Positions 44,595-47,028 of a stretch of DNA of 64,000 bases are shown here, piece after piece; position 1 is the stretch's first letter; the number at the start of each line of letters is the position of its first letter. Source of the DNA: Candidatus Rifleibacterium amylolyticum (GTDB lineage Bacteria; Muiribacteriota; Ozemobacteria; Ozemobacterales; Ozemobacteraceae); assembly GCA_009917695.1 (NCBI GenBank), contig JAACJG010000008.1, forward strand, positions 310,001 to 374,000, written 5' to 3'. The notes under the pieces are model-generated. The model had not been told where the DNA came from. It saw only the letters and a program-made list of their open reading frames with translations, and made no database searches. The position numbers and the translations under genes were made by a program.

Positions 44595-45083
44595 TTTTCG
44601 TGCTCGTAATCCTGCTCGTGCGCGTGAGTCGATGCGCTTGCCATCCGGCTGCGCCTCGACACTTGGCCATCCATGGCCTGCGTCGTAATCGATTCTTTCT
44701 CTCCAAGATTTCGCACAAAGCCACAGAGCCACGAAGAAGAAGCTCACGCAGAGCCGCAGAAGCGCGGAGAAGAAAGAAAAAAGAAAGAGAAGAACGATAC
44801 CCGATCCCGATAGCGATAGCGATAGCGATAAGAGACGAAGAGCATCCGCCGGTGAGACAGATTTCGCCGATTTCCATCATCGTGCTCGTGCGCGTAATCG
44901 TAATCGTAATCGATTCTCTCTAAGATTTCGCACTAAGCCACAGAGCCACGAAGAAGAAGCTCACGCAGAGCCGCAGAAGCGCGGAGAAGAACGATACCGA
45001 TACCCGATCCCGATAGCGATAGCGATAGCGATAAGAGACGAAGAGCATCCGCCGGTGAGACAGATTTCGCCGATTTCCATCAT
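44595..45083. repeat. Tandem copies of a composite intergenic repeat
   Basis: No gene lies between polA (44546) and the intron. A degenerate A-module (TTCGTGCTCGTAATCC) at 44595-44630 is followed by two direct copies at about 44681-44880 and 44899-45083. Each reads CGTAATCGATTC, then module B (TTTCGCAC(A/T)AAGCCACAG, AGCCACGAAGAAGAAGCTC), then GATAGC hexamer runs, then module D (GCATCCGCCGGTGAGACAG, ATTTCGCCGATTTCCATCAT). The copies are nearly identical apart from about 14 bases. The second is interrupted at its right end by the group II intron. Confidence 0.9.
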
Positions 45084-45136
45084 GTAGAGTAGGAATCGAC
45101 GGGAGGGTGTAACCCCGCCCCGTCGTTTCCCCTCGT

Positions 45137-45170
45137 CAAACCGGACGTGCGGATTTCCCGCATCCGGCTT
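45137..45170 (-). other. Group II intron domain V
   Basis: Minus strand: AGCCGGATGCGG, loop GAAA, then TCCGCACGTCCGGTTT. It has the catalytic AGC near its 5' end and the two-base bulge region, as in bacterial group II introns. Confidence 0.9.
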
Positions 45171-45185
45171 TCCTGTTGCCTTTCA

Positions 45186-46577
45186 TCATAAGTATAGTAG
45201 TCCAGTGTTTCTGACAAGAGCATAATGCGAGCTCTTATCATCCCTTTTGTAGCCTCTTTGGCTCTTTCTTTGCAGGTGTTGAAGCATTCTACCGCCAGCA
45301 TAGAAATTTAATTGAGCATAGGCCTTCTTGCAGTAACCATAGCTGAAGTAGTTCTTCCACCCTCGCAGGAAGGTGTTTAACCTATCCACAACTGACTCTA
45401 CCGGCAGGCGACAGAGATTCGAGGCGGTTAGCCTGTGTATCTCCTGCCGGGCTTTCACGATTGATTTCTTCGCCGGAATGACGTTCAAATACTTTCCTTT
45501 GTAGCCGAACAGGCTTCGATCATATCTGAAGGTATACCCCAGAAAGTCAAGCCTGCTCTCTTTCTTCAGACTCAGTATCTGTGTTTTGTCCGGGTTAAGA
45601 GTTAGACCCAGCCATTCTTCGACAGTTTGTTTTATCCAGTCAGTCAGTTTCTGACTGATCTGGTTTGCGCAAACTACGAAGTCATCGGCGTAGCGTATCA
45701 ATCTTGCATTAGCCCATGTGTATGGGCCTGCTTTCATGTGAAATTTCTTATCAAGCCAGTGTAGATATAGGTTCGACAGCAAAGGCGAAATGACTCCACC
45801 CTGCTGGACACCCTGCCGATTGGCTTTGGGGGGAAGACGTTTGTTGTCGTCGGTTTTCTCTATGATCGGAGCCTTCAGCCAACTTTCAATCAGCTTCAGA
45901 ATACTACTGTCGACGACTCTCATCTTGACGCACTTCATGAGCTTGTCATGCGGAATCGTGTCAAAGTAGCTTTTCAAATCTGCATCATAGATTTCCGTTC
46001 GACCACTTTTGATTGTTTCCTGAATTTTCTCAAGGGCTTCATGCGCTTTCTTACCGGGCCTGAAACCATGAGAACATTCCAGAAAGTCTGCTTCAAATAT
46101 CGGTTCCATTATCAACAGGGTGGCAGCCTGAACAACTCGATCCTTCAAAGTCGGTATTCCTAAGGGTCTTTTACCTTTGTTTGCTTTGGGAATGTATACC
46201 CGCAGCACAGGATCCGCGCGATAAGTCTTGTTAGTCAGTGTCTCACGGATGCCTGTAAGAAATTCACCGAGCTTTACTGGATTATCAAGAAATTCTTCTG
46301 CACACACACCATCGATGCCTGCTGCTTTACCTCTTTTGCCAACGTTCTTCCATGCCGTCTCGATGACATCTGTACGGCAGATCTGGTTGTAGAGTGAGTA
46401 AAAGCGGAATTCTGGTTCGTTTACTGCCTTTTGATTTAGTTTCCATCTCAACTCACGAACTTTCAGCGGAATGGAATTATTATCGAAGCTTAGGACTTCG
46501 ATAACTTCAGTTTCGCTTTCCCCGTAGTAGAACACAGGTTCAATCGGTTTCGTTTTGGTGTGATGGTTACGCGACAA
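45186..46577 (-). CDS. ltrA: Group II intron reverse transcriptase/maturase
   Basis: A protein of about 463 residues that splices and retrotransposes its intron. Start: TTG at 46577, six bases after GGGAGG; a TTG at 46583 is too close to that site and there is no early ATG. RT blocks are complete: GKAAGIDGVCAEEF, RPLGIPTLKDRVVQAA, FLECSHGFRPGKKAHEAL, YDADLKSYFDTIPHDKL, RQGVQQGGVISPLLSNLYL, and RLIRYADDFVVCA with the catalytic YADD. The maturase (X) domain ends with FLRGWKNYFSYGYCKKAY and a basic C-terminal segment (QRKSQRGYKRDD). No HNH endonuclease domain follows, so retrohoming would rely on nicks at replication forks or single-stranded targets. Confidence 0.93.
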   Translation of the reverse strand: MSRNHHTKTKPIEPVFYYGESETEVIEVLSFDNNSIPLKVRELRWKLNQKAVNEPEFRFYSLYNQICRTDVIETAWKNVGKRGKAAGIDGVCAEEFLDNPVKLGEFLTGIRETLTNKTYRADPVLRVYIPKANKGKRPLGIPTLKDRVVQAATLLIMEPIFEADFLECSHGFRPGKKAHEALEKIQETIKSGRTEIYDADLKSYFDTIPHDKLMKCVKMRVVDSSILKLIESWLKAPIIEKTDDNKRLPPKANRQGVQQGGVISPLLSNLYLHWLDKKFHMKAGPYTWANARLIRYADDFVVCANQISQKLTDWIKQTVEEWLGLTLNPDKTQILSLKKESRLDFLGYTFRYDRSLFGYKGKYLNVIPAKKSIVKARQEIHRLTASNLCRLPVESVVDRLNTFLRGWKNYFSYGYCKKAYAQLNFYAGGRMLQHLQRKSQRGYKRDDKSSHYALVRNTGLLYL

Positions 46578-46969
46578 CAGCAACCTCCCTTCGCTCCAGG
46601 TTGATTAGACCCTTCTTAACTACTATGAAGGTATCCGACTCCCGATCAACAGTGATCGGGTCTCTCAGGTTCCTCGACTTCTCTTTCACTGCACGCTGTC
46701 TCCAAACACCCCGAAGAGCCCTCTGGCTGCATATGAATGTTACTTTACCAGAGGCAACAGGCTTCACCAAGCACGGAAGGCTGGCCGCTCTCAAGAACAC
46801 TAACGAGGCCGAATCGAGTTCACTCGCGTTACGGCTTACAGTTTCGTCTTCGCAGGCCTCACCTTGGGGATTACTCCTTTCAGTGCCGCGTTGACTATAT
46901 GGTGAACATTCAATTACCATATTGACTACCTTTCAAATCAATAGAGAAGTCAGGCTTATCCTGACGCAC

Positions 46970-47028
46970 CGTGCTCGTGCTCGTAATCGTAATCGTAATC
47001 GATTGAATCATACGATTACGAGAACGAT
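46970..47028. repeat. A-module repeat, right flank of the intron
   Basis: CGTGCTCGTGCTCGTAATCG, two further CGTAAT-type hexamers and CGATT. The first 35 bases match 44881-44915 at 34 positions. A facing copy CGATTACGAG makes the whole an imperfect palindrome. Confidence 0.85.

Follow-up and report, generated by a model that had tools for sequence, protein, structure and literature searches.

What lies between polA and yjbQ in Candidatus Rifleibacterium amylolyticum, and are the two flanks of the mobile element found there the two halves of a single insertion site? The window, a stretch of 64,000 nucleotides (C8:310001-374000) from a genome of 5.39 Mb in 35 contigs, presents polA at 41763-44546, a repeat interrupted by an intron, and then yjbQ at 47092-47493. 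A first-pass annotation of these letters read this as one group II intron splitting one repeat junction between its own two exons, with an empty copy of its target preserved next door. The parts of that reading which concern the intron and its target have stood up well; the pairing of the two exons has not.

The interrupting segment, on the minus strand at 45084-46969, is a group II intron of 1886 nt with an intact domain V/VI and an intact reverse transcriptase (RT)/maturase. It runs from 5' GTGCG to CTAC 3', in keeping with the group II consensus GUGYG...AY, and the Rfam match to RF00029 (Intron_gpII; 50.1 bits vs a gathering score of 40), which covers domains V and VI at 45084-45172 (minus strand; catalytic core and 3' end), stops exactly at the last intron base, 45084, confirming the length and ends already proposed. 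The encoded protein, 465 aa from TTG as listed (45186-46583, minus strand), matches TIGR04416 at 353.9 bits vs a curated cut-off of 300, so that RNA and protein both bear out the original identification as a group II intron. The RT translation contains the motif RYADDFVV, and a profile search found both RVT_1 and GIIM domains while matching no endonuclease (HNH/En) family in the same protein. The intron presumably splices and retrohomes.

A comparison of the intron's surroundings with the rest of the genome shows where the difficulty lies. To its left stands a tandem array, delimited by sequence comparison, of which unit 1 occupies 44697-44880 and unit 2 occupies 44881-45083; to its right, at 46970-47004 (minus strand), a repeat remnant matches unit 2 at 34 of 35 positions, just as had been counted, and then diverges. 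Matches to the intron in the genome are confined to itself and to both ends of one 11,230-bp contig, C30, which starts and ends inside the intron and is 100% identical to it there, with the same first and last intron bases. C30 opens with the first 116 bases of the intron, before which, in the intron's sense, stands ...GCGCACGAGCACG, and closes with the last 126, which are followed by AGTGGTAATGC some ten bases beyond the stop codon of an amylase-like gene; between them lie genes for a glycogen debranching enzyme and the amylase, together with atp genes that include atpB, F, A, G and D. The overlaps between C30 and the window, chance-agreeing flank letters included, measure exactly 127 bases at both ends. 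Graph assembly with k=127 leaves equal overlaps at both ends around a collapsed repeat, the pattern to be expected had two copies of the intron been merged. When unit 2 (44881 onward) is laid against C30 from base 117, the agreement is 20/20, 35/35, 59/60, 99/100 and 112/115 over successively longer spans, vs 19/20, 34/35, 42/60, 50/100 and 58/115 against the window's own right flank. On comparison of these sequences it is thus C30, and not the window, that continues the array of unit 1, unit 2, intron copy A and unit 3, the last of these running on there from base 117; the left flank has its true partner on C30, and the right flank formerly assigned to it belongs to another copy. Both the single mismatch in 35 and the abrupt end of similarity at 35 bases follow from a two-copy collapse. 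With high confidence, then, the left flank of the window (44984-45083, the right end of unit 2 and the 3' exon of copy A) and its right flank (46970-47004, the 5' exon of copy B) come from two separate copies of identical sequence, between which about 11 kb of chromosome is absent, most of the ATP synthase genes included. On C30, 116 and 126 bases of the copies can be read; the collapse itself implies that they agree over their full length. That the window is correct as assembled, with one intron in one repeat and C30 placed elsewhere as a circle or as a region flanked by two further copies, is highly improbable: the contig is continuous at this point and its right flank does match the repeat at 34/35, but the C30 flank fits the array far better, and, as the intron lies at the end of no further contig, C30 could attach nowhere else except as a circle.

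Gene order in related genomes speaks to the same point. In three of them (G002, G005 and G012) a single contig carries, contiguously, polA on the minus strand, the debranching enzyme gene, atpB-F-A-G-D, the amylase gene, yjbQ and the uridine kinase gene on the minus strand; G020 has this order on the other strand to the limit of the stretch fetched, and what the partial contigs of G001 and G003 show is in line with polA, debranching enzyme (GDE), atp, amylase and yjbQ. It follows that, flanked by one intron copy on each side, C30 can be placed between 45083 and 46970 with both its gene order and its orientation matching, and it is at this collapse point (45083-46970) that some 11.0 kb of unique sequence (C30:117-11104) and a second copy of the intron belong. 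The same contiguity tells against the window as assembled. We are accordingly confident that on the chromosome polA is followed by the repeat units, then intron A, C30 and intron B, and finally yjbQ. Two identical direct copies 11 kb apart are also a substrate for recombination, and for Sinorhizobium meliloti it has been considered likely that intron copies recombine and that parts of the genome are lost in this way (PMC5894124). A deletion or excision in part of the population would then have given rise to the window's junction, C30 deriving from undeleted cells or from an excised circle. Such an event is possible but less likely than a collapse, and by our estimate very unlikely: it would entail loss of the atp operon, and C30 is part of the same assembly, its 127-base graph overlaps being clean at both ends, which plain collapse explains. 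Equally doubtful is the related proposition that recombination goes on in living cells between the direct intron copies bracketing the ATP synthase operon, with the deletion or the excised circle present in some of the population and the window's junction real. We infer that the missing segment reflects a fault of assembly and not a real deletion.

Once the two copies are told apart, the character of their target becomes clearer. The array, which lies between polA and the debranching-enzyme gene missing from the window, retains at the boundary of units 1 and 2 an intact, empty target (44871-44890), where, on the minus strand, CGAGCACG directly abuts ATGATGGAAA. As had been observed at the outset, the junction is intact here and interrupted at 45083/46970; an intact target does adjoin the intron, but it is the twin of copy A only and has no such relation to copy B. 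The repeat is also present in many copies, as previously suggested: target-like sites of the form GATTACGNGCACGAGCACG number 16 in the genome, vs none for a reversed-pattern control, and two of the 16 are occupied by the intron while a third is the empty one in the window. For the shorter CGAGCACGAGCACG the count is 45, spread over about 20 places, and a longer run of it at C3:177446-177537 comprises 14 overlapping matches in a 6-base register. In the relatives that were looked at, the repeat is absent from both spacers corresponding to the sites of copies A and B. A gene for a four-helix-bundle protein (PF05635/TIGR02436; 47584-47982) in the window has inverted copies of the target repeat on either side (47589-47626 and 48004-48037) and is missing between yjbQ and the uridine kinase gene in G002 and G005; a general link between the repeat and such genes was rejected, the other two in the genome having no such repeats nearby.

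Recognition of the target appears to depend on pairing with the 5' exon, which ends in GAGCACG at copy A and copy B alike; in the window this IBS1 is that of copy B, at 46970-46976 (minus strand), the motif being read from the sequence and its copy assigned by gene order. The candidate EBS1, CGUGCUU at 46769-46775 (minus strand; CGTGCTT, intron positions 195-201), pairs with GAGCACG at 7/7 positions, one of them G-U. Because an estimated 0.1 to 0.2 such matches are expected by chance in 390 nt, this pairing in the window's intron alone lends weak support. Introns from rhizobia provide the comparison. The Mesorhizobium intron, whose exon ends in AAATTCA, has TGAATTT in the aligned EBS1 columns, giving seven Watson-Crick pairs, and the Bradyrhizobium intron has CGTATGG there, pairing at 6/7 positions with its own exons; when 398 comparable columns were scanned across the window intron and these two, the EBS1 columns gave 20 of 21 pairs and the next best 15 of 21. 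Since the homologous columns co-vary with different exons, the placing of EBS1 at 46769-46775 is strongly supported by sequence comparison, so that the pairing put forward in the first-pass annotation has gained in weight. In a minimum free energy (MFE) fold the segment is unpaired, in a loop, and not buried in a stem. Neither of the outcomes that the first-pass annotation had named as refuting its reading was therefore seen, the copies on C30 having the same end bases and EBS1 being free. Candidates for EBS2 in the window intron did not hold in the homologues, and the same column test found no shared EBS2 column.

Domain I and the manner of insertion bear on the class of the intron. Part of domain I (46824-46938, minus strand) resembles RF02003 (group-II-D1D4-4) at 32.9 bits (E 4.4e-5), short of the gathering score of 49 that the homologous introns exceed, and the +1 base of the 3' exon is A at both copies. 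The intron is thus filed as group II, IIB-like, on a domain I likeness to RF02003 that is sub-threshold. Were the intron instead of group IIC, with insertion behind terminator-like hairpins in place of EBS/IBS homing, an RT/maturase without an endonuclease domain would also fit, and other introns of this genome look IIC-like, one of them lying directly 3' of a terminator-like hairpin; yet the Rfam search of the window intron gave no match to RF02001, its domain I instead resembling RF02003, its seven-base EBS1 co-varies with the exons, and neither target junction shows a terminator-like stem with a T run. A IIC assignment, being extremely unlikely, was rejected for want of an RF02001 match and of such a stem and T run at the targets. 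Elsewhere in the genome, group II introns with an RF02001-type domain I lie on contig C1 at about 190 kb and on contig C4 at about 511 kb, that on C1 beginning immediately after a terminator-like hairpin and T run. Further domain V matches occur on contigs C12, C9 and C32; those on C9 and C32 are near contig ends and may therefore also mark collapsed repeats.

The most satisfactory account of the locus, and one we hold with considerable confidence, is that a mobile, IIB-like intron with an endonuclease-less RT/maturase retrohomes to a dispersed (GATTAC/GAGCAC) repeat and that two of its copies were collapsed by the assembler. Targeting would proceed by pairing of EBS1 (CGUGCUU) with GAGCACG at the end of the repeat. 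The segment with the genes for the glycogen debranching enzyme and the amylase and with the ATP synthase operon would then lie between two identical copies of like orientation. Of these, copy A would sit where two units of the array meet, after polA and before the debranching enzyme gene, and copy B between the amylase gene and yjbQ. The assembler would have merged both copies and put the intervening segment aside as C30, so that a single intron is left with exons that do not belong together. That identical copies occupy two sites suggests, from sequence, that the intron moved recently. On the window's + strand, each of the eight 8-kb blocks has a negative GC skew, which under the usual convention, if it holds here, places both insertions in the lagging-strand template. 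A lagging-strand bias is on record for the endonuclease-less RmInt1 (PMC5894124); as the two copies sit in one region, their placement is consistent with such a bias and is no evidence for it.

In kind the intron is familiar, a bacterial mobile group II intron comparable to RmInt1 in ISRm2011-2; as a member of that kind it is new. RmInt1 and RmInt2 of S. meliloti (IIB3/class D) share with it an RT/maturase without an endonuclease domain, and their occurrence in several copies per genome within repeated targets (ISRm2011-2, ISRm17) is established (PMC5894124), as the window intron likewise occupies a repeated target; their targets, however, are insertion sequences, whereas that of the window intron is a short intergenic GATTAC/GAGCAC repeat. 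More generally, bacterial introns act as mobile DNA outside housekeeping genes, with homing as the prevalent specificity (PMC4424553). The introns on plasmids of Bradyrhizobium septentrionale and Mesorhizobium huakuii, with RF02003-type domain I, encode RTs about 41-42% identical to that of the window and share its GTGCG start and EBS1 alignment columns, but differ in exons and EBS1 letters and in that the window intron is sub-threshold for RF02003. On the B. septentrionale plasmid pBs1S1a, two 1918-base intron copies stand head to tail with no gap (1996-3913 and 3914-5831 of the fetched stretch). A search of genome contigs with the RT returned one relative, from Candidatus Aminicenantes (JAGLQA010000821.1), the closest found, with 48% identity over residues 37-465 and an RF00029 domain V as well; that contig stops upstream of the RT, so its exons and EBS1 fall outside the comparison. 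No RT relative was found in viral contigs, and among 40 genomes of the phylum no other genome matched at E 1e-80. The literature on introns in REP-like repeats or on assembly collapse yielded nothing specific.

The main value of the analysis lies in its correction of the window. Identical intron copies can silently drop essential genes from an assembled contig, and here, with the ATP synthase operon gone from between polA and yjbQ, a reader of the contig would be led to the wrong gene neighbourhood and to two exons wrongly paired. With that set right, the intron offers a clean case of homing to a short dispersed repeat, in which occupied, empty and tandem targets are found in one genome and EBS1 has been checked by co-variation.
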